From: a virus
Virus record (IMG/VR): IMGVR_UViG_3300021185_002489
Span: 1 to 61,839 of that record
DNA: 61,839 nt
Reading direction: 5' to 3' (one strand)
The notes beneath the pieces were generated by a model, which worked only from the letters and a program-made list of their open reading frames with translations, was not told the DNA's origin and did no database searches. A program made the position numbers and the translations under genes. Positions 35,866 to 53,905 of the stretch are shown piece by piece. The first letter of the stretch is position 1. Every line of letters starts with the position of its first letter.

Positions 35866-35875
35866 AATTTTAATT

Positions 35876-38663: not shown

Positions 38664-38664
38664 A

Positions 38665-38733
38665 TTAATCTTCTATTAAGTTACCATCTCCAGTATCAGA
38701 GATCCAATCGTCGTAATCAGGACATCCTAACAT
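38665..38733 (-). CDS. Tiny acidic protein, 22 aa
   Basis: A 22-residue frame (MLGCPDYDDWISD...) fits exactly in the gap between the SSB stop and the primase start, with its stop next to that start. It is acidic with one Cys. I would rate it as plausible but unproven. Confidence 0.35.
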   Translation of the reverse strand: MLGCPDYDDWISDTGDGNLIED

Positions 38734-38734
38734 A

Positions 38735-39064
38735 TTAAAATGGTAAATCAGGTTCTGGTGCTGCACCAGTAATAGACTGCAACATATCAACATTAGACTG
38801 TTGAGGTTGTCCCTCTCTTGGTGCAGTGTTTACATTTTGTCCGTTAGTCCAAACAACTTTAACATTACCTAAGTAAGACTTAGCTGCTTTAGCGTCGCGT
38901 TCTTCTTTAGTTTGTTCTGTTTGAATATAACCAGAATCTCCGTACTGTCCAACTTCGTCGTTAACAACTATTGTAATAGGATAGTACTTACCTTTTTTAC
39001 CTTCGTAAATTTTTGACTTATCAATCTTAGTTAAGTCAATGTTTGCTGAAATAATACTTGCCAT
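38735..39064 (-). CDS. Single-stranded DNA-binding protein
   Basis: The protein has 109 residues. The body has beta-strand patterns with YYPITIVVNDEVGQYGDSG and YLGNVKVVW; the C-terminus is a disordered Gln/Pro region that ends in PEPDLPF, the acidic-aromatic tail used by SSB proteins to recruit partners. Position between primase-helicase and recombination genes fits. Its start overlaps the stop of the 55-residue gene upstream. Confidence 0.72.
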   Translation of the reverse strand: MASIISANIDLTKIDKSKIYEGKKGKYYPITIVVNDEVGQYGDSGYIQTEQTKEERDAKAAKSYLGNVKVVWTNGQNVNTAPREGQPQQSNVDMLQSITGAAPEPDLPF

Positions 39065-39231
39065 TAGTATGTAGCTAATTGATTAAACATTCTTCTCATT
39101 TGATCTTTAGTAGCACCTGTAGTTCTACGTAGGTTGTCTACTGCTTTTGTGTGTGATTGATTGTTATAGAAGTTATCAACTCTAGTGTTAACTCCTGTTA
39201 CATCACATACTCTTTTTTTAACTCTTGCCAT
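39064..39231 (-). CDS. Hypothetical basic protein, 55 aa
   Basis: An ATG-started frame of 55 residues (MARVKKRVCDVTG...) whose stop overlaps the SSB start (TAATG). It is basic and helical, ending MRRMFNQLATY. The overlap and full use of the gap between SSB and exonuclease genes support translation. Function unknown. Confidence 0.6.
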   Translation of the reverse strand: MARVKKRVCDVTGVNTRVDNFYNNQSHTKAVDNLRRTTGATKDQMRRMFNQLATY

Positions 39232-39246
39232 AATATTAAATTTAAA

Positions 39247-39978
39247 TTAAAGTGTTTTGGAGATATAGTATTGGCTGAAATCTCCGTCGCCATTTACAAA
39301 AAATTCATTATAAGCCTGAACTGCTTTAGCAACTTTGTTTTGTCCAGATTGTAAAAATCTGTCGCTGCAATCAAATAGTCCAGTCTGTAATGTTTTTTTA
39401 TCTATCACTATAAATATTAATTCATAACCAAACATCTTAGAATAAATATATGCTTGACTATCATAATTATATTTATAGGCTGAATTAACAAATGAATTTA
39501 TATTGTTTGTAGTCTTAAGATCAATAACTAATTGATGACTGTGATTAACAATATCTGCTTTACCTTTCCATTGCATACCTTCTAATTCAGTTATGCCTGG
39601 TAATTCATATTCAACTGCTCCTTCTTGTATTAGATCTTTGAATAAATCATTGTCTAATACTTTCTCTCGCATCAACTCTATATTGTCAGCTTCATGTTCA
39701 AGCAGACATATATCCTCTCCAGCTATATCCTTATAAGCTTTTGTATTACGAGTTGATGATTTTACTATTTTGTATTTATCAAGCTTGTGAGGCTCTAATA
39801 TAGTTGTGTGAAAATATCCTCCGATTAAAAAAGCGGGATTAGGTGGTGAAGGTTTCTTAAAATCTAAAGGATTATTTAAGAGAGCTGATATATCACTATT
39901 GCTTAAATATGTTTTACCAAACTCTCCATAATAATCTTCGTCATTACGTAACCTTTCAATTGCTTTTTTATTATCCAT
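39247..39978 (-). CDS. PD-(D/E)XK exonuclease (RecE/RecB-like)
   Basis: The protein has 243 residues. It shows H57 in GGYFHTTILEP, D142 in GKADIV, D153-x-K155 in VIDLKTT and Q175 in DSQAYIYS, the full motif set of the RecB/RecE-type (PDDEXK_1) nuclease. Such enzymes resect DNA ends for recombination. It overlaps the ERF annealase gene by eight bases, forming the usual exonuclease-annealase recombination pair. Confidence 0.85.
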   Translation of the reverse strand: MDNKKAIERLRNDEDYYGEFGKTYLSNSDISALLNNPLDFKKPSPPNPAFLIGGYFHTTILEPHKLDKYKIVKSSTRNTKAYKDIAGEDICLLEHEADNIELMREKVLDNDLFKDLIQEGAVEYELPGITELEGMQWKGKADIVNHSHQLVIDLKTTNNINSFVNSAYKYNYDSQAYIYSKMFGYELIFIVIDKKTLQTGLFDCSDRFLQSGQNKVAKAVQAYNEFFVNGDGDFSQYYISKTL

Positions 39979-40570
39979 TAAGTTGTTTTAAAACATCATC
40001 TTTAATAGTATACTTTTCTTGTAAAGTTTTAAGTAAACCACCATTAGCCAAAAACTTTTTAGCTTGATCAATATTCTTCATATCTATTATAGGTTTTTTA
40101 TCTGCTAATATCTTATTTTCAAGATTATTAACTTTAGCTTTAAGTGTTTGCTCTCTGTGATCACGTCCGTGTGTATTAGTAGCATCAGCGTCAGCTGTAT
40201 CGTCAATAAGTAATAGATTACCTAAAGCATATTTTTTACCATAAGATGATGCTGAACCAAACTTTTGTGGCATTTGCATACCCTTTTGATTAAGATCAAC
40301 ACCTACAATAGCTGTACCTTCTATTTGATCACCAGTCTCTGCATCTACAATTGTAGCTGTGCTATGAATTATAGGAAAGTCAGAACCTAATGTTAGGTTT
40401 TCTTTAATTGTAACATATATATTATGTTTATCATTATAAGGTTTCAATGCTTCTAGTATATCTTCCGCAGATCGAAACATGTAATTACCAAAATTGTTTT
40501 TTCTAGACTTCTTGGCTTTAAAGTCTGCCTGAATAGCGCTAAGCTTCTCTCGTATGTTCATTAGATTCAA
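39971..40570 (-). CDS. ERF-family single-strand annealing protein
   Basis: The protein has 199 residues. The N-terminal two thirds match the ERF pattern: NYMFRSAEDILEALKP, STATIVDAETGDQIEG and GMQMPQKFGSASSYGKKYALGNLL (key residues FGSASSYGKKYAL). The C-terminus is a helical tail. It anneals complementary strands in phage recombination and circularisation. Directly followed by its exonuclease partner. Confidence 0.88.
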   Translation of the reverse strand: MNLMNIREKLSAIQADFKAKKSRKNNFGNYMFRSAEDILEALKPYNDKHNIYVTIKENLTLGSDFPIIHSTATIVDAETGDQIEGTAIVGVDLNQKGMQMPQKFGSASSYGKKYALGNLLLIDDTADADATNTHGRDHREQTLKAKVNNLENKILADKKPIIDMKNIDQAKKFLANGGLLKTLQEKYTIKDDVLKQLNG

Positions 40571-40666: not shown

Positions 40667-41017
40667 TTAAAATGTTAGATCGTAAATGATGTTGTCTTTT
40701 TTAAATAATCTTCTTTTATTAAATTTTCTTATTGTACCGAAGACTGTTTGTCCATCTACTAAAGTATTGTTGTGATAAGAATGTTCGTGCCATATTTTTT
40801 CTTTTTGATTTACACCGTTACCGGTTAGTTGTTGATTAGTTATTGGTATATATTTGCCACCTGATACTGCATTAACAGTACTTAAATTATAATTAGGTTG
40901 CTTTTGTTTAGGTGCATTATCTTGATAAGAGGAAGGTGCTTGATCACCTGGTCTTACATATTGTAATTCATCTATTGTCGATAGACAATATTTATATTTA
41001 CTCTTAAATTTATACAT
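40667..41017 (-). CDS. Hypothetical protein, first gene after the second promoter type
   Basis: The protein starts MYKFKSKYKYC and has 116 residues. A longer start five codons upstream (41032) would lie inside the TATAAT box of the promoter, so I prefer 41017; the transcript would then have almost no leader. The middle is Gln/Asn/Pro-rich, with KIWHEHSYHNN near residue 80. Function unknown. It opens the leftward replication operon. Confidence 0.55.
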   Translation of the reverse strand: MYKFKSKYKYCLSTIDELQYVRPGDQAPSSYQDNAPKQKQPNYNLSTVNAVSGGKYIPITNQQLTGNGVNQKEKIWHEHSYHNNTLVDGQTVFGTIRKFNKRRLFKKDNIIYDLTF

Positions 41018-41020: not shown

Positions 41021-41049
41021 ATTATAGTGCAATTTTACGTTAAAGGGAC
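41021..41049 (-). promoter_or_regulatory. Promoter type 2, facing the replication block
   Basis: On the minus strand GTCCCT (41049-41044) is separated by exactly 17 bases from TATAAT (41026-41021), with ATTGCAC directly before the -10. The same -35, spacer end and -10 occur at 48077-48105 on the plus strand. It lies right after the sigma-factor gene and before the replication genes. Confidence 0.7.
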
Positions 41050-41050
41050 C

Positions 41051-41827
41051 TTAATCTTTATAAATTTTTAATTTATTTTCTGCCCAATCATATACTTTTG
41101 ACGATGACTTGATACCATTGGTTACTACAAAGTAAGCCAACTCATCTAAAGCATCATCGTTGTTTTGTAGTCTAGTTAATAAACGTTGTTTTTGTTTCTT
41201 AACATTCTCTACATTCATACTAAAGTATGAAGCTATGTCCTTGATTTTCTTAGGTTTAGAATATATATCATCTAAGCCATAAAACATTTCTATCATAACA
41301 TGATACTTAGGAACATGCTTTAATAACCAACCTTTTAAAAAGTCTCCTAGTTTTTCATAATCGTAATCATATACTTCTTCATCTATAACAGATAGTACAT
41401 CATTATCAAACCATTGAGGAAACAATACAGTAACAAAACCAAAGCCATTTGAATAACGTTTTTTATCTTCATTATTCCATACACCTTTTATTGGTCGCTT
41501 TGATCCGTCTACATTTTTTTTAACTTCATCGTTAACTAAACCTTTTATACTTATACTTAAGTATTTAGAAATAGCTTTTTTACGATCTAATTTAGTTTCT
41601 AATGAGTTTATTAAATCCCAGTCTATATTAGACCATGATTTTAACAAAGCATAATAACCTTCTTGATGTAGATCATTGATGTTTACAACCCCTATAGCAG
41701 AATACTCTTTTGAAAAGCTATTTGCAATTTTAGATGCCATTTTAAAATAATCTAAAGGTATTTCAGATTTTAAATTAGAAACTGATGACTGGTTTAAAGC
41801 ATATATTTTTTTATTAAAATTTTTCAT
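41051..41827 (-). CDS. Phage sigma-70-family-like factor
   Basis: The protein has 258 residues. Residues about 26-70 resemble sigma region 2 (MASKIANSF, then DLHQEGYYALLKSW), and residues about 185-230 resemble region 4, with IEMFYGLDD, KIKDIASYFSMNVENVKKQKQRLLTRL as helix-turn-helix. It is followed by a distinct promoter motif present twice in the window. I infer that this protein redirects host RNA polymerase to those promoters. Divergence from cellular sigma factors is large. Start overlaps the stop of the 71-residue gene. Confidence 0.68.
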   Translation of the reverse strand: MKNFNKKIYALNQSSVSNLKSEIPLDYFKMASKIANSFSKEYSAIGVVNINDLHQEGYYALLKSWSNIDWDLINSLETKLDRKKAISKYLSISIKGLVNDEVKKNVDGSKRPIKGVWNNEDKKRYSNGFGFVTVLFPQWFDNDVLSVIDEEVYDYDYEKLGDFLKGWLLKHVPKYHVMIEMFYGLDDIYSKPKKIKDIASYFSMNVENVKKQKQRLLTRLQNNDDALDELAYFVVTNGIKSSSKVYDWAENKLKIYKD

Positions 41828-42039
41828 ATGCGTAATAATTTTAAGCGTCTACTGTATTTTTTTATAAGCTTAGCTTTTATTTTTAATTCTTTAACAGGTA
41901 TTCTATTTCTTATTTCACCCTGTAATACAATATCAATAATTTCAGCTCTTAAGCTAATTATTTCATTAAGCAAAAATTCTCTGTGTCTTTCTGTTCTGCT
42001 TTTAGTATCAATTCTTATTTTTCCTATTTTTATTATCAT
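41824..42039 (-). CDS. Hypothetical basic protein, 71 aa
   Basis: A Lys/Arg/Ile-rich helical protein whose stop overlaps the sigma-like gene start (ATGA). Coupling suggests it could be a regulator or partner of the sigma-like protein, but no known family is seen. Confidence 0.6.
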   Translation of the reverse strand: MIIKIGKIRIDTKSRTERHREFLLNEIISLRAEIIDIVLQGEIRNRIPVKELKIKAKLIKKYSRRLKLLRI

Positions 42040-42127
42040 TTTTCGGTTTTCTAAAGTCTTTTATTTTTGTAGCAATATTAAAACTATTGCTAGATACTAA
42101 GTGTTTGTATATTTTGTGTGATCTCAT
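42008..42127 (-). CDS. Hypothetical basic protein, 39 aa
   Basis: A small Lys/Asn-rich frame (MRSHKIYKHLVSS...) ending in a run of KNDNKNRKNKN. It overlaps the genes on each side by a few to 32 bases. Plausible by the packing pattern; no function known. Confidence 0.4.
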   Translation of the reverse strand: MRSHKIYKHLVSSNSFNIATKIKDFRKPKNDNKNRKNKN

Positions 42128-42282
42128 ATTATTTTTTCAAAGTGAATGTCCACATCTGGTGGGAATTGTTTTAAAATGTGTTCGCAAGCTTGTTCTTGCA
42201 CGTGTATAGCAACTTGAGTGTTAATCATATATTTATGTTGCTTACCTCTATCGTTTATAATCATATATTCTAGTATACTCAT
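42124..42282 (-). CDS. Hypothetical protein, 52 aa
   Basis: Frame MSILEYMIINDRGKQHKYM..., ending FEKII. It overlaps the next start by four bases (ATGA). Mixed alpha/beta composition. Unknown function. Confidence 0.5.
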   Translation of the reverse strand: MSILEYMIINDRGKQHKYMINTQVAIHVQEQACEHILKQFPPDVDIHFEKII

Positions 42283-42419
42283 TAGTACAAAGGTTTAGTG
42301 TGTTCCGGATCTGTTTGCCAGTGCTCCATAATGTGTTCGCCTGTTGAATTATCAATGTAATACGTTTCAGTACCTATTGTTATAAACACGCTATTTTCTG
42401 TTCTTATATCTACTATCAT
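42282..42419 (-). CDS. Hypothetical protein, 45 aa
   Basis: Frame MIVDIRTENSVFITIGTETYY..., a beta-like small acidic protein. Its stop overlaps the next start by one base (TAATG). Unknown function. Confidence 0.5.
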   Translation of the reverse strand: MIVDIRTENSVFITIGTETYYIDNSTGEHIMEHWQTDPEHTKPLY

Positions 42420-42583
42420 ACGTAATTCCAAAATGAATCAATCTTTTCGATATATGTTATACCTCCTTGATTAAAATGTAAGTTTTTATGTTTATCAAAA
42501 CTTGGTGGTATATTACCAATATTATAAGGTTTAAATTCAATTACTTCGCCAGTTGTTAAGCTTCTTAGTTTTTTTGTTTTCAT
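42416..42583 (-). CDS. Hypothetical protein, 55 aa
   Basis: Frame MKTKKLRSLTTGEVIEFKPY..., with an A-rich start (AAATATGAAAAC). Coupled to the next gene by four-base overlap (ATGA). Unknown function. Confidence 0.55.
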   Translation of the reverse strand: MKTKKLRSLTTGEVIEFKPYNIGNIPPSFDKHKNLHFNQGGITYIEKIDSFWNYV

Positions 42584-42588
42584 ATTTG

Positions 42589-42681
42589 TTATTTGATTAT
42601 ATAATACATATCTAATATTTTGTGCATTGCGTCTTCACTAATCTCATTAGAAAGAACCATACTGAATAATAATTTTCTCAT
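42589..42681 (-). CDS. Tiny helical protein, 30 aa
   Basis: Frame MRKLLFSMVLSNEISEDAMHK..., starting six bases after the ligase stop. Hydrophobic N-terminus. Could be a real micro-protein; evidence is only position and frame. Confidence 0.4.
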   Translation of the reverse strand: MRKLLFSMVLSNEISEDAMHKILDMYYIIK

Positions 42682-42687
42682 AGCTGT

Positions 42688-43545
42688 TTATTCGTAATTG
42701 CGAATAGATTTGAATAGAGGGTGTCTATATGATCCAGAAGGTGTACGTTGGAAGTATGTGAATGTAGCAGTCTTGCCAATATACCATTCAGCTATATCGT
42801 ACATTTTTTCTAGTACAGGCATTTTGTCCATTACTGGCATTCCGAATTCGACACCGTTAGCGTCTCGTGCAAGAAATTTGCCGATCGTGCCAGTACGTTT
42901 GCCCTGACCCTCCACCCAGCCGGTGATCGTTGCTTCGGTATCGTGGAATTCTTTGTATTTTTGTAAATTGTAACTGCGTTTGTTTTCATATGGTTTGTTA
43001 TTACGTAATATTGCGCCTTCATAGCCTTGTTTAGTAGTAAACTGATGATACATTAGTCTTGCTGTAACATCGTTTTGAACTTGATAAGTCTCAACTGTTT
43101 TACAGTATTGTAATGTAAATTCTTTGTGTAAGTTTTTAATGCTTTCATTGCGATACCCAAAACTATTATCAGGCGTATCAGGCATGAATATATCATAGTT
43201 GTGAAATTGTATTGCTTTAGCTTCGTTACGCTCAGCATCAGATGGTGATTGTTTACGTACGAGTGAGATAATCTTGTTGAAGTTATCTTTGTAATCGTGA
43301 TTGTATAGCTCACCGTCTAGCACAACGTTAGGATACTTAGTAAACAATGGCACAAGTTCATCTGTTATATGCTGAGCGTTCATAAATTGTTTATGGTTGC
43401 GTGAAAATGCACCGTGTTTAGTAATGTAACAACGTACGCCGTCAAGCTTCGGTTGAATGAAAGAATCTTTATCAAATTCTTTTTTACCTACAGGATGCGC
43501 TAGCATTACATTAAAGTTTGTCATAGTCTGTTTTAATTTTTTCAT
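42688..43545 (-). CDS. ATP-dependent DNA ligase
   Basis: The protein has 285 residues. Motif I is QPKLDGVR with the nucleophile K33; motif III is VLDGELY (D77-E79); motif IV is YEGAILR (E176); motif V is LQKYKE (K196). An OB-fold-like C-terminus (about 205-285) follows with GKRTGTIGKFLARD. It seals nicks during replication and recombination. A later start at 43524 (MTNFNVML) is also possible; the longer form overlaps the upstream gene by 35 bases. Confidence 0.92.
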   Translation of the reverse strand: MKKLKQTMTNFNVMLAHPVGKKEFDKDSFIQPKLDGVRCYITKHGAFSRNHKQFMNAQHITDELVPLFTKYPNVVLDGELYNHDYKDNFNKIISLVRKQSPSDAERNEAKAIQFHNYDIFMPDTPDNSFGYRNESIKNLHKEFTLQYCKTVETYQVQNDVTARLMYHQFTTKQGYEGAILRNNKPYENKRSYNLQKYKEFHDTEATITGWVEGQGKRTGTIGKFLARDANGVEFGMPVMDKMPVLEKMYDIAEWYIGKTATFTYFQRTPSGSYRHPLFKSIRNYE

Positions 43546-43828
43546 ATATTTCTTTTAATTCTTGTAATAATTCGTATTTTTCTTCGCTTAGTAGCTTTTT
43601 TGCTGTTTTTTCTAATTCAATTAATTGTTCTTTTAATAAATCTTTTTGATTAAATTCTTCTGAATATTTTACATTACCAAATGCATCAACATCTTTTGTA
43701 AAAAATTCTTGAGGACTCATAGTGTCAAATGATACTATTGTTTTATTAGAGTCTAAATAATCTTTTAATCTATTAAATACTTTATCAGCTATCATGTCTG
43801 ATAATAGCTCCATTTGATCTTGGGTCAT
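43511..43828 (-). CDS. Hypothetical acidic coiled-coil protein, 105 aa
   Basis: A Leu/Lys/Glu-rich protein with a coiled coil at about residues 60-105. Its start lies 41 bases below the type 1 promoter at 43869-43897. It overlaps the ligase start. No family recognised. Confidence 0.6.
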   Translation of the reverse strand: MTQDQMELLSDMIADKVFNRLKDYLDSNKTIVSFDTMSPQEFFTKDVDAFGNVKYSEEFNQKDLLKEQLIELEKTAKKLLSEEKYELLQELKEIYEKIKTDYDKL

Positions 43829-43907
43829 ATTCTAATTCTTTAAACATATTATTAATTTCTTCACTTATATTATCACTTTGTGATGGTGTTTGTAACGTAT
43901 TTTTCAT
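43785..43907 (-). CDS. Possible micro-protein overlapping a type 1 promoter
   Basis: A 40-residue frame (MKNTLQTPSQSDNISEE...). The type 1 promoter lies inside its first codons, so that promoter could only express the shorter form from the ATG at 43847 (20 residues); the long form needs read-through from upstream. One of the two may be real. Confidence 0.3.
   Translation of the reverse strand: MKNTLQTPSQSDNISEEINNMFKELEYDPRSNGAIIRHDS
43869..43897 (-). promoter_or_regulatory. Type 1 promoter, copy 1
   Basis: CGTTAC (43897-43892) then 17 bases then GATAAT (43874-43869), inside the wider pattern TACGTTAC...GTGATAATATA. It faces the ligase-to-sigma operon. Confidence 0.75.
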
Positions 43908-43908
43908 A

Positions 43909-44139
43909 TTATTTTATGTAATTATTTGTTGTGCATAGCATTTCCATTGTACGCCATACTTTTAAATCTCTTATTGCACCATAAGCTAAGTCAAAAGTTT
44001 GTTGGCTATCAATACCTGCAAGACCTTTATGTCTATTTTTAAAATAGTATTGAACCTCATGCTCGCTATGATGAATTTTAGAATAAAGCTTATTGCTTAT
44101 TCTTTCATCAACATATTTTTTCATTTCTTTTTTATTCAT
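43909..44139 (-). CDS. Hypothetical protein, 76 aa
   Basis: Frame MNKKEMKKYVDERISNK..., with an upstream alternative start at 44163. I prefer 44139, which overlaps the upstream gene by only eight bases. The middle has YYFKNRHKGLAGIDSQQTFD. No family recognised. Confidence 0.55.
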   Translation of the reverse strand: MNKKEMKKYVDERISNKLYSKIHHSEHEVQYYFKNRHKGLAGIDSQQTFDLAYGAIRDLKVWRTMEMLCTTNNYIK

Positions 44140-44455
44140 CTTCATCTTCTGTATGTTGTTCAACGTAATCTTCTATTTCATATTCATTAAAGAATTGTTC
44201 AATATCTGAGCAGTATATTACTGCCTGCTCGTCATCATAATCGTAACTTACGTCTTTAATGCGTTCAATAATATCATCAAAGCTTGGTTCATAGTAATAT
44301 ACATCTTCTTCCCAATTTATTTTTTGCTCGTCATTAGTTATGACGAATACTTCATAGCCGTCAACAGTGCTTTGAGTATATATACTTAGCTCTGGGTTGC
44401 GTGGAAAATCTTCTGAGATCTTTACATTTAATAGTTTTTCTAGTTTTTCAATCAT
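44132..44455 (-). CDS. Hypothetical very acidic protein, 107 aa
   Basis: A Glu/Asp/Tyr-rich protein with net charge strongly negative, with YYYEPSFDDIIERI and an ending HTEDEDE. Such DNA-like acidic proteins in phage early regions sometimes inhibit host nucleic-acid-binding proteins, which is only a possibility here. It lies directly downstream of the tRNA island. Confidence 0.6.
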   Translation of the reverse strand: MIEKLEKLLNVKISEDFPRNPELSIYTQSTVDGYEVFVITNDEQKINWEEDVYYYEPSFDDIIERIKDVSYDYDDEQAVIYCSDIEQFFNEYEIEDYVEQHTEDEDE

Positions 44456-44475
44456 TATATTTAATTTAATATTAG

Positions 44476-44548
44476 TTGCGGTGACAGGATTCGAACCTGT
44501 GACCTCGAGTTTATGAGACTCGCGAGCTGACCACTGCTCTACACCGCT
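44476..44548 (-). tRNA. tRNA with CAT anticodon (Met, or Ile2)
   Basis: A 73-base cloverleaf on the minus strand: acceptor stem AGCGGTG/CACCGCA (first pair A-A mismatched), D-arm GAGC...GCTC, anticodon stem CGAGT/ACTCG with loop CTCATAA, and T-arm ACAGG/CCTGT with TTCGAAT. The anticodon stem lacks the three G-C pairs of bacterial initiators, so elongator Met or lysidine-type Ile is more likely. CCA is not encoded. Confidence 0.85.
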
Positions 44549-44554
44549 AAAAGT

Positions 44555-44616
44555 TAGGGCCTCACCATTGCTTTTCGTTTACCCTTGCAAGAGGTACGCC
44601 GGTTTTTTTGGCCCTA
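44555..44616 (-). other. tRNA-like structured segment, no D-arm or T-arm
   Basis: A perfect 7-bp closing helix TAGGGCC/GGCCCTA encloses an anticodon-arm-like hairpin TACCT-CTTGCAA-GGGTA (TGC would be Ala). The sides hold no D-arm or GTTC T-arm, so it is not a functional standard tRNA. It may be a decayed tRNA or another structured RNA between the two tRNAs. Confidence 0.35.
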
Positions 44617-44673
44617 TTTGTGCTACGTGAGTCTTTAACCATTAAGGTGCCTCATTCATCTAACACTATTTTG

Positions 44674-44749
44674 TGGACGTGGCAGGAGTCGAACCTACGT
44701 TTGCTGATAGTGTACTTTTGAACTTTGTCAGCACTTGCCCATCACGCCC
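44674..44749 (-). tRNA. Aberrant tRNA or tRNA-like gene
   Basis: Acceptor GGGCGTG/CACGTCC and T-arm GTAGG-TTCGACT-CCTGC are clear. The middle lacks a standard D-arm; instead TGCTGA/TCAGCA form a 6-bp stem with a 20-base loop. The total length (76) is normal. I could not assign an anticodon. Either the fold is non-standard or the gene is decayed. Confidence 0.5.
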
Positions 44750-44751
44750 GT

Positions 44752-44943
44752 TTATTTGCGTCGCCAAGATCGGTGCACTGCTGCACTTGTTGCTTGGTCA
44801 ACGACTTGTATTTCTAGTACTTGTTTGCTACCAATGATCGGTACATAACTATATAGCTGTGTATCAGAGCATTGCACGCAATTTTTGTAGCCCATTTCAA
44901 TTCTAACAGGATGAACTTTGCTGCCACATTTACAATATTTCAT
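44752..44943 (-). CDS. Zinc-ribbon protein, 63 aa
   Basis: The protein opens with MKYCKCGSKVHPVRIEMGY and has Cys at 4, 6, 22 and 25 (CKCG...CVQC), a short zinc ribbon, then a C-terminal VDQATSAAVHRSWRRK. The ribbon resembles DksA-like or similar phage zinc ribbons. It may bind RNA polymerase or nucleic acid. Starts in an ATGA overlap with the upstream gene. Confidence 0.6.
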   Translation of the reverse strand: MKYCKCGSKVHPVRIEMGYKNCVQCSDTQLYSYVPIIGSKQVLEIQVVDQATSAAVHRSWRRK

Positions 44944-45086
44944 AATTGTTGTTTTAATATATGATCAATTATGTGTTGAGCATTACCTTCAACTGTAATT
45001 TCTGTGTCGTATAAACCCGTGTATAGCAACTTGTATGTTGCGGGTTTTACTTTTTTAAATTGTGTATCAAATTTATTTCCCGCCAT
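44940..45086 (-). CDS. Hypothetical protein, 48 aa
   Basis: Frame MAGNKFDTQFKKVKPATYK..., ending HILKQQL. Coupled by ATGA to the zinc-ribbon gene, and overlapping the end of the next upstream gene by 14 bases. Unknown function. Confidence 0.5.
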   Translation of the reverse strand: MAGNKFDTQFKKVKPATYKLLYTGLYDTEITVEGNAQHIIDHILKQQL

Positions 45087-45303
45087 CTTCTTCTATTTTT
45101 GTTGGTTCATATTTATTTTCAAGATAATCAACTAAGTTTACAGTAAAATATTCAACAATATCTTGTGCTTCAAAGCCATCATCAATTGCTGGTTTAAATT
45201 TTTCAATTGCATATTCAATTTGCCAATGGTCAATTAATTTTTTCATTCTATTGAATTTATTTTGTAAATCAATATAGTTTTGTACGTTTGTGTTTTTATT
45301 CAT
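45073..45303 (-). CDS. Hypothetical helical protein, 76 aa
   Basis: Frame MNKNTNVQNYIDLQNKF..., 28 bases below the type 1 promoter at 45331-45359. Helical, charged, Asp/Glu-rich second half. First gene of its operon. No family recognised. Confidence 0.6.
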   Translation of the reverse strand: MNKNTNVQNYIDLQNKFNRMKKLIDHWQIEYAIEKFKPAIDDGFEAQDIVEYFTVNLVDYLENKYEPTKIEEDGGK

Positions 45304-45330
45304 ATTATTATTTATTTGTTATTCATATAT

Positions 45331-45359
45331 ATTATCACGTACAAATTAATTTTGTAACG
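45331..45359 (-). promoter_or_regulatory. Type 1 promoter, copy 2
   Basis: CGTTAC (45359-45354), 17-base spacer, GATAAT (45336-45331), extended on the left by TA and on the right by ATA. It overlaps the last codons of the 45346 gene and drives the 45303 gene. Confidence 0.75.
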
Positions 45360-45507
45360 TATTTTGTTTAAAATATTCACGTATTTGATTCATAAGTGAT
45401 AAACCAATATCATATTTATTATAAACGTAATTTACTTTTTCGTCAATATTAAGATCAGTTTTGTTTTCATTTACATAATCTAATATATTTGCTATTGATT
45501 CATTCAT
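45346..45507 (-). CDS. Hypothetical protein, 53 aa
   Basis: Frame MNESIANILDYVNENKTD..., whose last codons lie inside the type 1 promoter at 45359. Its start overlaps the upstream gene stop (45504) by four bases. Helical, acidic. Unknown function. Confidence 0.5.
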   Translation of the reverse strand: MNESIANILDYVNENKTDLNIDEKVNYVYNKYDIGLSLMNQIREYFKQNTLQN

Positions 45508-45698
45508 TTTGTAACTTTTTTAATTAAACTAAATAATAGTTGTTGTTTTATTTGTAATTCTAATTCGTATAAGTCATCAAATTCATCTAATTGAAATTCC
45601 GATGGGTCCAATTGCCAGTGTATTGTATTGTCAATGTGTTCATTAACTTCTTCAATAATATCATTAGCTATATTTGCTATTAATTTTTTGTCATACAT
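45504..45698 (-). CDS. Hypothetical acidic protein, 64 aa
   Basis: A helical Glu/Leu-rich protein, with IIEEVNEHIDN and ELELQIKQQLLFSL. Ends overlapping the next start. No family recognised. Confidence 0.55.
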   Translation of the reverse strand: MYDKKLIANIANDIIEEVNEHIDNTIHWQLDPSEFQLDEFDDLYELELQIKQQLLFSLIKKVTK

Positions 45699-45701
45699 AA
45701 T

Positions 45702-45902
45702 TTATACTATTTTTATATATTGGTTTTCTTTATTCCATGCTTTACTAGTCATATATCCTGTTGTGTAATAAGTATTATTTTCTAATAAGTGCATCATTTC
45801 TTTGTATTCACTTGTAGCTTCGGGACGTTTGCATTGTTTAATGTAGTGAATTGTTTTAATTCCGCTATGGTCGTTGCCGTAAAATATCCATGTGTTTTTC
45901 AT
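45702..45902 (-). CDS. Hypothetical protein, 66 aa
   Basis: I take the start at 45902 (MKNTWIFYGNDHSG...) because the longer frame up to 45947 would overlap a small zinc-ribbon gene by 44 bases. It has a beta-alpha layout with NDHSGIKTIHYI. Unknown function. Confidence 0.55.
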   Translation of the reverse strand: MKNTWIFYGNDHSGIKTIHYIKQCKRPEATSEYKEMMHLLENNTYYTTGYMTSKAWNKENQYIKIV

Positions 45903-45903
45903 A

Positions 45904-46020
45904 TTACCATAATTTAATTCCGCAGTTTGTGCAAAGTGGCATTGCATCTACTTGTGTGTTATAAAATTCTATTTCTTCTTCGTGCAATGGTTCATTACAG
46001 TAGCTACATTCATTTATCAT
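45904..46020 (-). CDS. Mini zinc-ribbon protein, 38 aa
   Basis: Frame MINECSYCNEPLHEEE...LCTNCGIKLW with CxxC at 5-8 and CxxC at 30-33, about right for one treble-clef or rubredoxin-like zinc knuckle. Start overlaps the stop of the upstream gene (ATGATAA-type). Likely protein-protein or nucleic-acid binding. Confidence 0.6.
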   Translation of the reverse strand: MINECSYCNEPLHEEEIEFYNTQVDAMPLCTNCGIKLW

Positions 46021-46223
46021 GCTTTTATTCCGTATTTAGTGTAATGTTTAATTGTTTCAACGCTTGCGGTGTTAAAATCACGCACTCGTTGTCTGTATTT
46101 TTCGTTAGTACAATACTTTTTCATTGCATTTACGCTAGTAATACCATGATCAGCACCGTGTTTTTGTTCAAAGTTAGCTATTTGTAGTAACTTTTCTTCC
46201 ATCATTTGTTTAGTTATATTCAT
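46017..46223 (-). CDS. Hypothetical basic protein, 68 aa
   Basis: Frame MNITKQMMEEKLLQIANF..., 19 bases below the type 1 promoter at 46242-46270. Helical, with KKYCTNEKYRQRVRD in the middle. Unknown function. Confidence 0.6.
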   Translation of the reverse strand: MNITKQMMEEKLLQIANFEQKHGADHGITSVNAMKKYCTNEKYRQRVRDFNTASVETIKHYTKYGIKA

Positions 46224-46241
46224 ATTGTTTTATTTTATTAT

Positions 46242-46270
46242 ATTATCACGGTGTTTTGTATTTTGTAACG
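46242..46270 (-). promoter_or_regulatory. Type 1 promoter, copy 3
   Basis: CGTTAC (46270-46265), 17 bases, GATAAT (46247-46242). It drives the five-gene set from 46223 to 45346. Confidence 0.75.
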
Positions 46271-46286
46271 TATTTATGTATAGCAA

Positions 46287-46418
46287 TTACAAATATTTTT
46301 GTTGTTGCCATTGAGTTATCTCAGAATTAAAACGTTTATAATATTCTAATTCTAATAATTCAATTTGTGCTTTTGATATTTTTAATATTTTATTTCTTTT
46401 TACTTTACGATTTCGCAT
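46287..46418 (-). CDS. Hypothetical basic protein, 43 aa
   Basis: Frame MRNRKVKRNKILKISKAQ..., strongly basic N-terminus, then a Leu/Glu helix and Gln-rich end. It overlaps the upstream gene stop by 19 bases. Unknown function. Confidence 0.5.
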   Translation of the reverse strand: MRNRKVKRNKILKISKAQIELLELEYYKRFNSEITQWQQQKYL

Positions 46419-46744
46419 TCTGTTTCAATTTCTTTAATATCTTCATTTAAAACTTCTTCCATTTCATTCCATCTTACAACATCATCATCATCATTTAATA
46501 AATCATATAAGGCACAGAAACCTGCTTGAGAGTAATTTTCAGCTTTGCCAAATAAATCATGCTCTTGAAAGACATCATAATTTAATTCATCACAAATTTT
46601 TCTTCCTTCATAAGTATATATAACTTTATTATCAATCCAGGAATGCTTGAAATTATAAAAATCATCAGCATCATTTATTTCACCTTGATGAAAAGCTAAC
46701 CAAGCCTCTTCACTAAAATCTTGTACTATATTATCTTTATACAT
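46400..46744 (-). CDS. Hypothetical acidic protein, 114 aa
   Basis: An Asp/Glu/Trp-rich protein, with DFSEEAWLAFHQGEI at the start and DLLNDDDDVVRWNEMEEV near residue 90. It reads like one of the acidic early proteins. No family recognised. Confidence 0.6.
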   Translation of the reverse strand: MYKDNIVQDFSEEAWLAFHQGEINDADDFYNFKHSWIDNKVIYTYEGRKICDELNYDVFQEHDLFGKAENYSQAGFCALYDLLNDDDDVVRWNEMEEVLNEDIKEIETECEIVK

Positions 46745-46746
46745 AT

Positions 46747-46935
46747 TTATTTATTTATTAATTTGTTAATTTCTTTTATTGCTAAGAATTTTCTTGCTTG
46801 ATAGTCTTGATAATCAAGTAATAACTCTTCTTGTTTATTTAAACTATTACCACCATTATTTATTGCTAATTCAATTTTAGCCATTGTATGGTCAAATTCT
46901 TGTACTATTGTATTTAATTCTTTTATACTATTCAT
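46747..46935 (-). CDS. Hypothetical helical protein, 62 aa
   Basis: A helical protein with two regions broken by NNGGNSLNK, two bases upstream of the next gene start. Its start overlaps the stop of the upstream frame by eight bases. Unknown function. Confidence 0.55.
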   Translation of the reverse strand: MNSIKELNTIVQEFDHTMAKIELAINNGGNSLNKQEELLLDYQDYQARKFLAIKEINKLINK

Positions 46936-47041
46936 ATATCATTGCTAATAATTCAAATTCATCTTTTGTTATTAAGTTTTCCCACATTGCTATTACTAAA
47001 TAGGAAACATCTCTACCTGTTTTTTTATTTGTTATAATCAT
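46928..47041 (-). CDS. Hypothetical protein, 37 aa
   Basis: Frame MIITNKKTGRDVSYLVIAM..., ending LLAMIYE. Position in a run of overlapping small frames supports it. Unknown function. Confidence 0.5.
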   Translation of the reverse strand: MIITNKKTGRDVSYLVIAMWENLITKDEFELLAMIYE

Positions 47042-47043
47042 AT

Positions 47044-47178
47044 TTATTTATTTTTTATTATTTTTATATTTTCTTCAATTTCTTTTATTCTATCTTTGTG
47101 ATCGGTAGAATTTTCTCTTGAATCAACTACTTGTTCAAGTAAGGTTTCGAGTGCTAAAATTATTAAATATTTGTTCAT
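47044..47178 (-). CDS. Hypothetical protein, 44 aa
   Basis: Frame MNKYLIILALETLLEQ..., with a short hydrophobic N-terminus and Lys-rich C-terminus. Two bases before the next start. Unknown function. Confidence 0.5.
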   Translation of the reverse strand: MNKYLIILALETLLEQVVDSRENSTDHKDRIKEIEENIKIIKNK

Positions 47179-47339
47179 AATTCACTAAACTTTTTAATTA
47201 TATTTATTTCACTTTGCCAGTTTTCAGATTGTTCATCTGTTAATTCTACTAGATAATCTATATCATATAAGTTTTTAATGTAACCTTTCATTGTAAAATA
47301 AATTACATCTATTTCTTTTTGTGTTAATTCTACTTTCAT
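47175..47339 (-). CDS. Hypothetical acidic protein, 54 aa
   Basis: Frame MKVELTQKEIDVIYFTM..., acidic and helical, ATGA-coupled to its downstream gene. Unknown function. Confidence 0.5.
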   Translation of the reverse strand: MKVELTQKEIDVIYFTMKGYIKNLYDIDYLVELTDEQSENWQSEINIIKKFSEL

Positions 47340-47482
47340 ACTTCTTCTACTTTTAATATATTATCAATTCCAAAATGCTTTATAACTTTTTCAATATTAT
47401 CACTTTGCATATATTTTATATAATGTCTTATATTCCCTTTGCAATTCCAGTGTGTGGTTTTTGTTATTTTAAACATTTTCAT
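47336..47482 (-). CDS. Hypothetical basic protein, 48 aa
   Basis: Frame MKMFKITKTTHWNCKGN..., 38 bases below the type 1 promoter at 47520-47548, so it opens the operon 47482 to 46287. Coupled by ATGA to its downstream neighbour. Unknown function. Confidence 0.55.
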   Translation of the reverse strand: MKMFKITKTTHWNCKGNIRHYIKYMQSDNIEKVIKHFGIDNILKVEEV

Positions 47483-47519
47483 ATTATTATTTTTTTTATT
47501 ATTATTTATTTACATTTAT

Positions 47520-47548
47520 ATTATCACAATATTATATAAATTGTAACG
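47520..47548 (-). promoter_or_regulatory. Type 1 promoter, copy 4
   Basis: CGTTAC (47548-47543), 17 bases, GATAAT (47525-47520). The stop of the 47532 gene falls inside it. Confidence 0.75.
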
Positions 47549-47750
47549 TACTTTTTTTAATTTTATTTTTATTTATATAACTCATACCTTTTATATTAAA
47601 CTCAACAACATCACAAATGTTTAACTTATCTTTTATTTTTACATCTTGTAAGTTATTAATATTAAAACCAATGTAAACATTATTATTTAGTTTAAGTTTT
47701 TTAGTGTTTAATATTTGAGATTTGTAGTGGTTTGTTTTTAATTTTTGCAT
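47532..47750 (-). CDS. Hypothetical basic protein, 72 aa
   Basis: A Lys/Asn/Ile-rich beta-like protein (MQKLKTNHYKSQI...), alone under the type 1 promoter at 47776-47804 (26-base spacing from -10 to ATG). Unknown function. Confidence 0.55.
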   Translation of the reverse strand: MQKLKTNHYKSQILNTKKLKLNNNVYIGFNINNLQDVKIKDKLNICDVVEFNIKGMSYINKNKIKKSTLQFI

Positions 47751-47775
47751 TTTATTATATTTTATTTACATTTAT

Positions 47776-47804
47776 ATTATCACTTTATTATAAGAAGTGT
47801 AACG
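47776..47804 (-). promoter_or_regulatory. Type 1 promoter, copy 5
   Basis: CGTTAC (47804-47799), 17 bases, GATAAT (47781-47776). Identical flanks to copy 6 over the -10 and downstream bases. Confidence 0.75.
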
Positions 47805-47809
47805 TATTT

Positions 47810-47998
47810 TTAATTATTTATTTCTAATTCTAGATATCTATTATAAAACTCTTCTATACTTTCATTATATTTCATTTCTATTCCAAAATCTTTAAAACTC
47901 ATATTTAAAATTAATCTTTCATTTTCTATTTGTTTCTTACTTCCATAATAGTTATAATCTTTTAACTTTTCTAATTCTAATTTTATAATCTTTAACAT
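47810..47998 (-). CDS. Hypothetical helical protein, 62 aa
   Basis: A Leu/Glu/Lys/Asn-rich helical protein (MLKIIKLELEKLKDYN...), alone under the type 1 promoter at 48023-48051. It is the first leftward gene out of the divergent region and so probably the earliest expressed. Unknown function. Confidence 0.55.
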   Translation of the reverse strand: MLKIIKLELEKLKDYNYYGSKKQIENERLILNMSFKDFGIEMKYNESIEEFYNRYLELEINN

Positions 47999-48022
47999 AT
48001 CTTATATTTTATTTACACTTAT

Positions 48023-48051
48023 ATTATCACTTTATAATATAATTTGTAACG
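48023..48051 (-). promoter_or_regulatory. Type 1 promoter, copy 6
   Basis: CGTTAC (48051-48046), 17 bases, GATAAT (48028-48023), with the same AAAGT before and ATAAGTG after as copy 1. It fires leftward from the edge of the divergent region. Confidence 0.75.
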
Positions 48052-48487
48052 TATTTTTATAATAATTATACAAAATGTCCCTTTTTGAATATATTGCACT
48101 ATAATATAATATATAACTTTAATAACTTAAAGATATAATATAAACATTGAATATAATTCAATAAACCAAATACTATATTACATTAATGATAATTTATCAT
48201 AAGTGTAGGTATAATACAATATCTATGAGTATATGACAACAAAACATAACAATATCTACACATAATGTGACGATAGCTTCTATGTAATGAACATATGACA
48301 ATGATATATACATAAGATCAAACATAATGCATCACCATATGTGTGATAAATCATTGATATTACTACATTATTAATGATAAATGCATTGAATTACTACTAA
48401 TATGGGGGTACTTTATTAATCGACTTTCTTAAGTACTTGATTATCATATACATATATGTAATACAAAACCTCTATATATAAAACATT
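48052..48487. other. Divergent non-coding region, about 430 bp
   Basis: No coding frame of note. It is extremely AT-rich and separates the leftward and rightward blocks. It holds the plus-strand type 2 promoter at 48077-48105. No clear iterons, long palindrome or second copy of the type 1 motif was seen by eye. Position fits a control region or replication origin, which is not proved. Confidence 0.6.
48077..48105 (+). promoter_or_regulatory. Promoter type 2, facing the right-hand block
   Basis: GTCCCT (48077-48082), 17-base spacer ending ATTGCAC, TATAAT (48100-48105). It matches the minus-strand copy at 41021-41049 at -35, spacer length, the seven bases before -10, and -10. First gene downstream begins at 48488. 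Confidence 0.7.
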
Positions 48488-48646
48488 ATGAAAAAGAAAC
48501 GAAGTGTACATACGATATCACCTTTCTTAAAGAAGGATGCTTGTTACCACAGTGTTAAAGCAAGGTACGATGTATTCCCTTCTGCATATGCTTCTGGAGC
48601 TATAGCGAAATGCCGTAAGGCTGGGGGACCAAAAAAGAAAAGATAA
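48488..48646 (+). CDS. Small basic protein, DUF5872-like, 52 aa
   Basis: A Lys-rich chain with KKDACYHSVKARYDVFPSAYASGAIAKCRK; the KARY..FPSAYASGA..KCRK pattern is that of the DUF5872 family, found in marine phages and giant viruses. Role not known; basic character suggests packaged nucleic-acid binding. Confidence 0.7.
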   Translation: MKKKRSVHTISPFLKKDACYHSVKARYDVFPSAYASGAIAKCRKAGGPKKKR

Positions 48647-48663
48647 ACTAAAATTAAAAGAAC

Positions 48664-48864
48664 ATGGGAATAGGACCACAGAATTTAGGTGCTCAGGGTA
48701 TGTCTGGAAACAGTAAGCCGTGTGGGTCACCGTTGAAAAAGATTAGTAATCCATCGGATGGAGAGGGTGCAAGCCCTATAACTTTCAATGATAAGTTAGA
48801 GGCAGCTGTTGACTCAGGAAAGATCACAGGTGGATTCGCAAACGCAATTAAGAACAATAAATAA
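48664..48864 (+). CDS. Hypothetical small protein, 66 aa
   Basis: A Gly/Pro/Ser/Lys-rich flexible protein (MGIGPQNLGAQGMSG...) with an amphipathic C-terminal helix. Six bases before the next gene. Same cluster of small basic or flexible proteins. Confidence 0.6.
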   Translation: MGIGPQNLGAQGMSGNSKPCGSPLKKISNPSDGEGASPITFNDKLEAAVDSGKITGGFANAIKNNK

Positions 48865-48870
48865 TATATT

Positions 48871-49191
48871 ATGTATAAGCAAAAACCAGGAGATCCTAAA
48901 AAGAAATTAAATACCCCGGGCACATTTAGAGAAGATGCCCCTATAACAAAACTAGCTAATGACGGATCTAACCCTATGTTTAAACTAGATACTCCTGTCT
49001 ACAAGCATGAGGCTGGACATAAAGGAAAACAAAAAGGCGATAGAATCAAGACAGAAAAACTTAAGGAAGTTGTAGTATACGCTCAGCGACCAAACCGTTT
49101 TAAACCAAAGGAGGTTGGTGGAAGAAACGCTGCTTCAGGTCCAAACGCGGGGGAAGAGTTTAAAGCTAAAAAAGGTAAGCCAGTAATCTAA
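48871..49191 (+). CDS. Hypothetical basic protein, 106 aa
   Basis: A Lys/Pro/Gly-rich protein with KHEAGHKGKQKGDRIK near residue 50 and a RPNRFKPKEVGG region. Probably disordered. Adjacent to DUF5872-like genes. No motif for activity is visible. Confidence 0.6.
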   Translation: MYKQKPGDPKKKLNTPGTFREDAPITKLANDGSNPMFKLDTPVYKHEAGHKGKQKGDRIKTEKLKEVVVYAQRPNRFKPKEVGGRNAASGPNAGEEFKAKKGKPVI

Positions 49192-49353
49192 ATGAAAAAG
49201 GTTAAGGCACCTGCTGGATACCACTGGATGAAAAAGGGTACTGGGTACAAATTAATGAAGCATACCGGTAAGTTTGTAAAGCATACCGGGGCTTCTTTAT
49301 ATGCTAGCTTCCCTACACAAAAAGTACATAAGAGTGGCAGTAAGAAAAACTAA
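49192..49353 (+). CDS. Small basic protein, 53 aa
   Basis: Frame MKKVKAPAGYHWMKKG...LMKHTGKFVKHTGASLYASF. The KAPAGYHWMKKG opening with a GASL.A.F...K.H end is a small Lys/His-rich pattern that I have seen beside DUF5872-like proteins. Starts on A-rich context one base after the previous stop. Confidence 0.6.
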   Translation: MKKVKAPAGYHWMKKGTGYKLMKHTGKFVKHTGASLYASFPTQKVHKSGSKKN

Positions 49354-49630
49354 AAAAGGATTAGCCCTTAAACGTTGGTTTAAAGAGAAGTGGACTGATG
49401 AGAAAGGTAATGCTTGTGGTTCCACTAAAAATAAGAATACAAAAAAATGTCGACCATCGAAACGGGTGGGTCGAAAAACGGTGAAAACCTGGGGTGAGAT
49501 GTCGCCTTCAGAAAAGAAGCGTGCGGTAGCAGAAAAGAAAAGAGTGGGGATGGGGAGAAAAACATCTCAGATAAGAAGAAAAACTACTAAAGCAAAGAAG
49601 AATGAAACTACCAAAAAACGGAGTCGCTAA
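49334..49630 (+). CDS. DUF5872-like basic protein, 98 aa
   Basis: The frame contains KKGLALKRWFKEKWTDEKG followed by CGS...KKCRPSKRVGRKT and ends in a Lys/Arg/Thr tail. GL.RWF.E.W...CG...CRPS.RV..KT is the DUF5872 signature. I take the GTG at 49334 as start, because an ATG at 49301 would overlap the previous gene by 53 bases. Overlaps the next gene by 29 bases. Confidence 0.6.
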   Translation: MAVRKTKKGLALKRWFKEKWTDEKGNACGSTKNKNTKKCRPSKRVGRKTVKTWGEMSPSEKKRAVAEKKRVGMGRKTSQIRRKTTKAKKNETTKKRSR

Positions 49631-50003
49631 AGAATTAAGATCCTACACAGGTTCTTTATTTATATTTTTATTCGTCATAGGTATTATAATTACTTTATTA
49701 CAATACCCAGTACTTGAGTCTAACAAAGAAGTTGTAATGGTCCTTATAGGAACCATCGCTGCTTCTATACCTATTGTTATAAGTTCTATCACAGGAACTA
49801 AACCTGATGACGTGAATGCTCTCAAGCAGACCATTGAAAAGAAAGAACATCATATAGAGCTTCTAGTACAAGCTAAAGATAATCTTGAAGCTATGGTAAT
49901 TGAGTTACAAAAGCAGATGTTAGAGAATCAGGATGCAGTTATGGATAAGATCATCCTAAAAGCCGCAATGGATTTTGACGATAAACATTATAAAAAGAAA
50001 TAA
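49602..50003 (+). CDS. Membrane protein with coiled coil, 133 aa
   Basis: Two hydrophobic segments (about residues 17-37 and 46-62) are followed by a long coiled coil (about 70-130) with ELLVQAKDNLEAMVIELQKQ. The N-terminus is basic. A role in the envelope, such as spanin-like or virion-membrane interaction, is possible. No lipobox or exact family. Confidence 0.6.
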   Translation: MKLPKNGVAKELRSYTGSLFIFLFVIGIIITLLQYPVLESNKEVVMVLIGTIAASIPIVISSITGTKPDDVNALKQTIEKKEHHIELLVQAKDNLEAMVIELQKQMLENQDAVMDKIILKAAMDFDDKHYKKK

Positions 50004-50005
50004 CC

Positions 50006-50326
50006 ATGGCGAGTGTAGATATAGACGGGGATGGAAAACCAGATTTTTCTATAAACCTTAGCCAGATAATTACTTTAGGTGGTATTGTTATATCTATAGT
50101 CGGTTCGTATTATACATTGTCTTCTAAAATAGAAGCTGCTGAAGTAGCTTTAAAGAAGATAAAAGAAAACGAACAGAAGTATACATGGCCAGCCCAAAGA
50201 AAGCTTGAACAAGACGTGCAGAGAATGACTGTTGAATTTCAAGCAGCTATGAAAGATATTGAGTATTCAATGCGTGATATAGACAAGATACGCGAAGAAC
50301 TCAATAATAAAAAAAATATAAGATGA
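50006..50326 (+). CDS. Membrane-anchored coiled-coil protein with DxDGD-type loop, 106 aa
   Basis: The N-terminus MASVDIDGDGKPDFSIN has a calcium-loop-like DIDGDGKPD (residues 5-13). A hydrophobic segment (about 22-41) and then a coiled coil (about 44-105) follow. It overlaps the next gene by four bases. Same architecture as its upstream neighbour, so the two may pair. Confidence 0.6.
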   Translation: MASVDIDGDGKPDFSINLSQIITLGGIVISIVGSYYTLSSKIEAAEVALKKIKENEQKYTWPAQRKLEQDVQRMTVEFQAAMKDIEYSMRDIDKIREELNNKKNIR

Positions 50327-50571
50327 GTCAGAAACTTTCCCTTAAAGCCCGAGCAGCTAAAGCGGCTAGAGATTTAAGATACGCTAATTCGCCTGATAGA
50401 AAGGCAAAGCGTGCAGATAGCCAAAAGAAACGTAGAGCTGCTAAGAAGGCGGGACGTTCTCTGACAAATTTAGATTACGATCATAAAGATGGTAAGTTTA
50501 AATCCGTTAAAGCCAATAGAGGTAATGACGGTAAAGGTACTAAAAAAGAAAAACGTAAATTAATTAAATAA
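50323..50571 (+). CDS. Small very basic protein, 82 aa
   Basis: Lys/Arg/Ala-rich protein with KAKRADSQKKRRAAKKAGRS; the RANSPDRKAKRADSQKKRR region and NLDYDHKDGKFKSVKANRG look like the HNH-less homing or packaged-protein type RNPs seen in related phages. I make no firm family call. It lies with the other basic genes. Confidence 0.6.
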   Translation: MSQKLSLKARAAKAARDLRYANSPDRKAKRADSQKKRRAAKKAGRSLTNLDYDHKDGKFKSVKANRGNDGKGTKKEKRKLIK

Positions 50572-50574
50572 GTT

Positions 50575-50781
50575 ATGCAAATCATTGTAATCATATTATC
50601 AATTTTATTATTCACTGCAGTAGGAATCATTGTAGCAACATACCTTGGAAAATTTAAAGACTCAGATGCGGATGGTATCCCTGATGAAGTTGAGGAGTTT
50701 GTTGAAGACACTGTAGATGACGCAAAAGAAGTTGTTAAAAAGTTCACGAGAAAAAAACCGGGACGTAAAAAGAAAAACTAA
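50575..50781 (+). CDS. Single-pass membrane protein with calcium-loop motif, 68 aa
   Basis: A hydrophobic segment (residues 3-24) is followed by KDSDADGIPDEVEEF (about 28-42), a thrombospondin type 3 / EF-hand-like Asp motif, then a basic RKKPGRKKKN tail. Second calcium-loop protein in the cluster. Confidence 0.65.
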   Translation: MQIIVIILSILLFTAVGIIVATYLGKFKDSDADGIPDEVEEFVEDTVDDAKEVVKKFTRKKPGRKKKN

Positions 50782-50782
50782 T

Positions 50783-51091
50783 ATGCCAGCTAAGAAAACC
50801 ACACGACGCAAACCACCTGCTCCTTCTAAAAAGAAGTCTTTAGGATATTATGCTAAAGTGAATAAGAAGGGCGGTACGGGTAAAAAAGCTGGTGGAGGAA
50901 TGACAGCTAAGGGTGTTGCTAAGTATCGCAAGGATAATCCAGGTAGTAAACTAAAAACTGCCGTAACAACACCACCATCAAAATTAAAAAAAGGCAGCAA
51001 AGCTGCAAAAAGAAGAAAAGCATTCTGTGCAAGATCTAAAAGCTGGACATCGGAAAGAGGTCGTGCTGCTAGACGGAAATGGAATTGTTAA
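50783..51091 (+). CDS. Basic protein with CARSKSW...RKWNC end, 102 aa
   Basis: The chain starts MPAKKTTRRKPPAPSKKK and ends KRRKAFCARSKSWTSERGRAARRKWNC-type (Cys at 86 and 102). The ending FCARS...RRKWNC is known to me from marine phage proteins beside DUF5872-like genes. I use the ATG at 50783, since an upstream start at 50717 overlaps the previous gene. Confidence 0.65.
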   Translation: MPAKKTTRRKPPAPSKKKSLGYYAKVNKKGGTGKKAGGGMTAKGVAKYRKDNPGSKLKTAVTTPPSKLKKGSKAAKRRKAFCARSKSWTSERGRAARRKWNC

Positions 51092-51096
51092 AAATC

Positions 51097-51120
51097 AAAT
51101 TAAATTAAATTAAATTAAAT
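51097..51120 (+). repeat. AAATT pentanucleotide repeat before groEL
   Basis: Four AAATT units plus AAAT run directly into the groEL ATG at 51119. An equal tract with five units occurs before the glutaredoxin-like gene at 57573. A-rich leaders help start translation in Bacteroidetes. Confidence 0.75.
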
Positions 51121-53396: not shown

Positions 53397-53400
53397 AAAA

Positions 53401-53751: not shown

Positions 53752-53763
53752 TAAAATAAGAAC

Positions 53764-53904
53764 ATGAAAAAAAGAAAAGTTAGCTTATACGATACTCTAC
53801 CTGGAGTAACTATCGAACCTTCTAAGGTTGATAATCAAAATATGAATATGCCTATTACAGCAAAAGTTAAATCTTCTGCGAAAGGAACAAAATTAAAGAA
53901 ATAA
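53764..53904 (+). CDS. Hypothetical basic protein, 46 aa
   Basis: Frame MKKRKVSLYDTLPGVTIEPSK..., strongly basic at both ends. It ends one base before the large fibre gene. Unknown function. Confidence 0.55.
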   Translation: MKKRKVSLYDTLPGVTIEPSKVDNQNMNMPITAKVKSSAKGTKLKK

Positions 53905-53905
53905 G

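Follow-up and report, generated by a model that had tools for sequence, protein, structure and literature searches.

The DNA analysed here (the window) is the full 61,839-nt (61.8 kb) stretch of virus record IMGVR_UViG_3300021185_002489, which comes from a marine phage and carries its genes in plus- and minus-strand blocks (Table 1). In two relatives, G003 and G007, the GroEL/fibre block continues into the structural genes found at the window start (1-30175), so the plus-strand promoter described below would head one late block of about 45 kb. A hairpin that looks like a perfect bidirectional terminator (GGGGTA...TACCCC, together with A/T runs) was seen by eye at 30249-30273, where the plus- and minus-strand blocks converge. 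The phage appears to be podovirus-like and kin of Flavobacteriia podoviruses, in an uncultured marine group. Its closest terminase and portal proteins are those of phages of Flavobacteriia, and Shine-Dalgarno sequences are found at only 2% of window genes, such sequences being likewise absent in Bacteroidetes (PMC6847099); together these features point to a host that is probably a Bacteroidota. A host link to the 'Rickettsiales' metagenome-assembled genome MED657 (two phage-like contigs, nearly identical, from a single metagenome bin) was set aside.

The early block also holds two elements that may be RNAs. On the minus strand at 44674-44753, a tRNA-like element has the acceptor GGGCGTG/CACGTCC, a good T arm and an oversized anticodon loop; neither ARAGORN nor Rfam made a call for it, and similar sequence occurs in G001, G003, G008 and G009. 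Adjoining tRNA-Met, the non-coding minus-strand region 44550-44660 contains a long GGGCC...GGCCC stem, shows partial conservation in G001 and G003, reaching 95.8% over 48 nt in the latter, and could possibly be a small RNA of a new kind.

Table 1. Features of the window relevant to transcription, in order of position.
Feature	Position	Strand	Basis or remark
Late block, second part: GroES-like, terminase, portal, structural proteins	494..30175	+	sequence, relatives
Replication/nucleotide block: Erf, exonuclease, primase/helicase, ThyA, MazG, NrdB, NrdA	30283..40570	-	sequence
First gene past the minus-strand type-2 site	40667..41017	-	putative start site
Type-2 promoter, replication side: GTCCCT-N10-ATTGCAC-TATAAT	41021..41049	-	sequence, conserved in relatives
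Sigma-70-family protein P0001, 258 aa	41051..41827	-	PDB profile, Foldseek, homologue P0002
Early block of small ORFs, tRNA-Met, DNA ligase (42688-43545)	41828..47998	-	upstream of sigma, between both type-2 sites
Type-1 promoter 6, last before the ligase-to-sigma part of the operon	43865..43899	-	same place in G001, G002
Type-1 promoter 5	45327..45361	-	
Type-1 promoter 4	46238..46272	-	
Type-1 promoter 3	47516..47550	-	
Type-1 promoter 2	47772..47806	-	
Type-1 promoter 1, first of the early operon	48019..48053	-	
Late-side type-2 promoter; back to back with type-1 promoter 1	48077..48105	+	sequence, relatives
AT-rich non-coding leader, about 380 nt, with palindromes such as TGATAATTTATCA	48106..48488	+	past the late type-2 site
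Late block, first part: GroEL (51119-52696), fibre-like proteins	48489..61839	+	

The early block is bordered by two copies of a promoter-like motif, here termed type 2. The initial annotation had read GTCCCT-N17-TATAAT, with ATTGCAC abutting the -10 element, at 41049-41021 (minus strand) and 48077-48105 (plus strand), and both sites were confirmed, as was the 17-nt spacing at each. It had also placed the minus-strand copy beside a sigma-like gene and facing replication genes; this copy indeed starts 1 nt past the stop codon of ORF 41827-41051, pointing towards a 121-aa ORF followed by the Erf, exonuclease and primase/helicase genes. The plus-strand copy likewise faces the GroEL/fibre block, as described, with terminase, portal and structural genes following in relatives. 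No third copy of the full motif occurs anywhere in the window. A looser pattern (spacer 14-20) was found twice against 0.09 expected, and one of 100 shuffles reached two; once ATTGCAC and the exact spacing are also required, the motif far exceeds chance expectation. A weight matrix trained on other genomes only, with the window excluded, ranked the two sites first among window sites at 40.2 and 38.6 bits, compared with 13.5 bits for the next window site and 16.9 bits for the best of 10 shuffled windows. Within the 40-61.8 kb region, no inverted repeat is longer than the one made by these two sites (49 nt, 78%).

A sigma-54 promoter, a class that needs GG at -24 and GC at -12, was considered for the letters TTGCAC and rejected, as GG at -24 is absent from the aligned type-2 sites. 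Downstream of the minus-strand site, the ATG at 41017 lies 4 nt beyond the -10 element, so the first message of the window would be leaderless or nearly so, or would use a later start codon; in relatives the distance from the -10 to this ATG reaches about 14 nt. The leader that follows the late type-2 site is a possible candidate for a replication origin.

Relatives of the sigma-like ORF comprised eight from IMG/VR, two more that came with the alignment, and a nearly identical pair from a metagenome-assembled genome. A motif search in relatives, suggested earlier as a check, found type 2 at 1-4 nt after the sigma gene and with fixed spacing in all 11 clade relatives in which the sigma stop is present, their sigma homologues being 56-95% identical to that of the window. 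The clade consensus is AAnGTCnCW-N11-TTGCACTATAWT, with invariant spacing, and its information-rich core in these relatives is GTCnC...TTGCACTATA. Exactly two copies each are found in the window (G000), G003, G007 and G008 (the last with a 77-bp terminal repeat), and fragments without a second copy terminate inside the early region. In G003, G007 and G008 the second copy lies at the divergent early/late junction, where it and the first early promoter stand back to back; this junction, arranged as in the window, is seen in 10 further contigs, and that of G022 is similar. Furthermore, an exact-pattern scan of the 2.9 million viral contigs of IMG/VR gave 23 matches on 22 contigs: a sigma gene directly precedes eight, 13 lie at the early/late junction (10 with a recognisable back-to-back type-1 site) and two are chance matches in coding sequence. 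The motifs, their positions, their conservation and their exclusivity are established at the sequence level, and the view that type-2 sites behave as a conserved promoter class is supported.

The protein encoded beside the minus-strand site had been guessed to be a phage sigma factor, a protein that directs cellular RNA polymerase to its start sites, and this guess holds. Pfam and PHROG scans of the window protein returned nothing over cut-off, its Pfam match to region 2 (core binding, -10) falling below the cut-off at E 0.027, with weak matches of E 0.0017-0.07 in relatives, and tblastn against named phages found no match. A family profile searched against the PDB matched region 4 of SigA/RpoD (E 2.5e-4) and, weakly, region 2 of the same protein. 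The AlphaFold model has low confidence (pLDDT 60); all 50 of the Foldseek matches listed for it were sigma factors or sigma-RNAP complexes, none with E below 0.01. The decisive link is the homologue P0002 in G022, a complete relative (127-bp terminal repeat; terminase 67% and NrdA 87% identical), since this protein passes the Pfam cut-offs for both Sigma70_r2 (E 9e-8) and Sigma70_r4. It occupies the same place, upstream of Erf, and matches the family profile at E 2e-19. These comparisons establish the family assignment, and the window ORF can be taken to encode a real but divergent sigma-70-family protein. Directly upstream of the G022 sigma gene lies a 205-aa helix-turn-helix protein with weak HTH matches (L072:7097-7714), which could be a co-regulator.

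A second class of sites, type 1, has the form TACGTTACAAA-N13-GTGATAATATAA and occurs six times in the window, always on the early strand and always between both type-2 sites. Type-1 promoter 6 is also readable as the start of a short ORF (MKNTLQTPSQSDN...), which is conserved in G001 and G002. Type 1 keeps the window form in G007, G005, G009 and L045, has the upstream element TACACWACAAA in G003 and G008, and takes a further variant form, ending GGATAATATAA, in G022. Counts of 5+5 dyads upstream of all genes returned type 1 as a repeated class in every genome, and no third repeated promoter class upstream of the genes of any of them. Type 1 fits the sigma-70 consensus poorly and lacks the TTTG/TANNTTTG consensus of Bacteroidota, the presumed host phylum. 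Pairs matching that consensus, with the host again presumed, are not enriched in the window clade (6 against 4.2 expected); Maribacter phage Panino has 12 host-type TTTG-N-TAnnTTTG sites against 3.2 expected. A generic sigma-70 promoter scan was uninformative in such AT-rich DNA (110 found against 105 expected). A virion RNA polymerase was considered as the early reader and rejected, as judged by the DxDxD motif alone, which is absent from five large or unassigned plus-strand proteins, the 2225-aa and 1332-aa proteins among them.

Several lines of evidence tie the sigma factor to type 2. One type-2 site always follows the sigma gene in the clade, and the dyad counts leave no other motif as its target. 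Both the sigma gene and type 2 are present in all five genomes with an intact early region (the window, G003, G007, G008 and G022), a co-occurrence confounded with shared descent, and the type-2 motif is also absent from the four isolates without this sigma (ctfjg026, Panino, elemoA and phi40:1). Moreover, only three early proteins are common to the window and G022, and the sigma is among them. On this evidence the sigma quite probably makes direct contact with the type-2 promoters. The initial annotation had proposed that type-1 promoters yield the sigma, which then turns on type 2; the promoter class, the sigma family, the upstream type-1 sites and the co-occurrence support this in part, and we infer from them the remaining parts, namely promoter activity, timing, core binding and recognition of type 2 by the sigma.

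A two-step relay, running from type-1 early promoters through the sigma to two outward-facing type-2 promoters, is the reading we hold with good confidence. Type-1 promoters would fire first, and host polymerase would transcribe the early operon leftward, with the sigma made last from the distal end. The sigma would then join host core RNA polymerase and direct the enzyme to the two type-2 promoters that flank the early region, both of which would be opened at once. The minus-strand promoter would thereby open the recombination, replication and nucleotide genes, and the plus-strand promoter the chaperone, fibre, packaging and structural genes. The upstream elements of the late type-2 site and type 1 are about 25-40 bp apart, so that occupation of either site may hinder the other. 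As type-2 sites are absent upstream of the sigma gene in the window and its relatives, the sigma would not amplify itself through this class, and the relay looks non-autoregulated in that respect.

G022 bears directly on how type 2 is recognised. Its sigma is 28% identical to that of the window, with other residues in the recognition helix at the positions that usually contact the -35 element; its late type-2 site is unchanged despite this divergence, and no type-2 site follows its sigma gene. For these reasons direct contact is something we infer, and the same features would suit a reading in which some other factor, either a sigma of the host or another activator of the phage, serves the type-2 sites and the phage sigma acts elsewhere. 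No repeated motif beyond those described is available as a target for the sigma, and type 2 fits neither the Bacteroidota consensus (no TAnnTTTG) nor that of sigma-54. With few other early proteins common to all type-2 genomes, and with sigma-less relatives lacking type 2, recognition by another factor appears distinctly unlikely.

It is more doubtful still, and in our judgement very improbable, that the phage sigma reads type 1 as positive feedback on the early operon and that something else reads type 2. The mismatch of type 1 to the consensus of the likely host phylum is consistent with such feedback, as is the variation of its upstream element among relatives (TACGTTACAAA or TACACWACAAA). 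These variants, however, do not track the sigma phylogeny: in L045, a contig of MED657, type 1 has the G000 form even though the sigma there shares 72-78% identity with the G003 and G008 proteins. Furthermore, the sigma would be needed before its own gene was transcribed. Recombination or operator sites, for instance the ends of an invertible 7-kb segment, are scarcely credible, for although the inverted copies flank one 7-kb block, its orientation is identical in the window, G003, G007 and G008, on which ground inversion was rejected, while the copies have a -10-like TATAWT and 17-nt spacing, always face a gene block and do not share repeated flanks.

The relay through the phage sigma raises the question of what reads the type-1 early promoters. 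One tentative extension, which we consider rather unlikely as a whole, is that these promoters ignore the host consensus and that a further factor, either a host alternative sigma or one carried in the virion, starts the infection; an open-loop relay without autoregulation would then serve most of a 60-68 kb genome from two outward promoters. The proposed relay pairs a sigma with a 29-bp promoter, a specific and testable combination in a group where plain Pfam and PHROG searches miss the sigma. If it is correct, the time classes of nearly all genes could be predicted from two sites, and the promoter system would be orthogonal to the unusual Bacteroidota consensus.

Phage sigma cascades are already known. 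SPO1 gp28 and T4 gp55 are phage-made sigma factors that steer the host core polymerase towards middle or late promoters, with the cofactors gp33/34 in SPO1 and gp33/gp45 in T4; these systems belong to other phage groups and have other promoter sequences and cofactors than the window. Closer in gene content are Panino, Elemovirus, Cellulophaga phi40:1 and ctfjg026, which share chaperonin genes, divergent gene blocks and homologous terminase (45-63%) and portal (37-50% identity) proteins with the window, but lack both the type-2 motif and any homologue of this sigma. A search of open-licence literature for sigma factors of Bacteroidota phages or a transcriptome of a Cellulophaga phage yielded nothing directly relevant, an absence that does not amount to proof of novelty.

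The closest known system is that of phiEco32 (gp36 sigma; gp79, an inhibitor of the host holoenzyme) and Salmonella phage 7-11, in which host-type early promoters lie upstream and a phage-specific promoter, present in small numbers, serves the middle and late genes (PMC4331800, PMC3594737). Like the window phage, they are podoviruses with a plus-strand virion cluster, a minus-strand functional cluster and their own sigma. Similarly to phiEco32, the window combines a separate early class upstream of the sigma gene (six type-1 sites) with a low-copy phage-specific promoter class, here two per genome and one per middle/late block. In contrast to phiEco32, the type-1 early promoters mismatch the host housekeeping consensus, taking the presumed host as the reference. 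Phage promoters of phiEco32 and 7-11 also lie upstream of the sigma gene, which is autoregulated (PMC4331800), whereas the window has its site directly downstream of the sigma gene and none upstream. Their core promoter sequence is tAATGTAtA, unlike the bipartite window motif with its distant GTCnC element and only two copies. Judged from the genomes compared here, what is new is a divergent sigma lineage with its own putative bipartite promoter, arranged differently from phiEco32.
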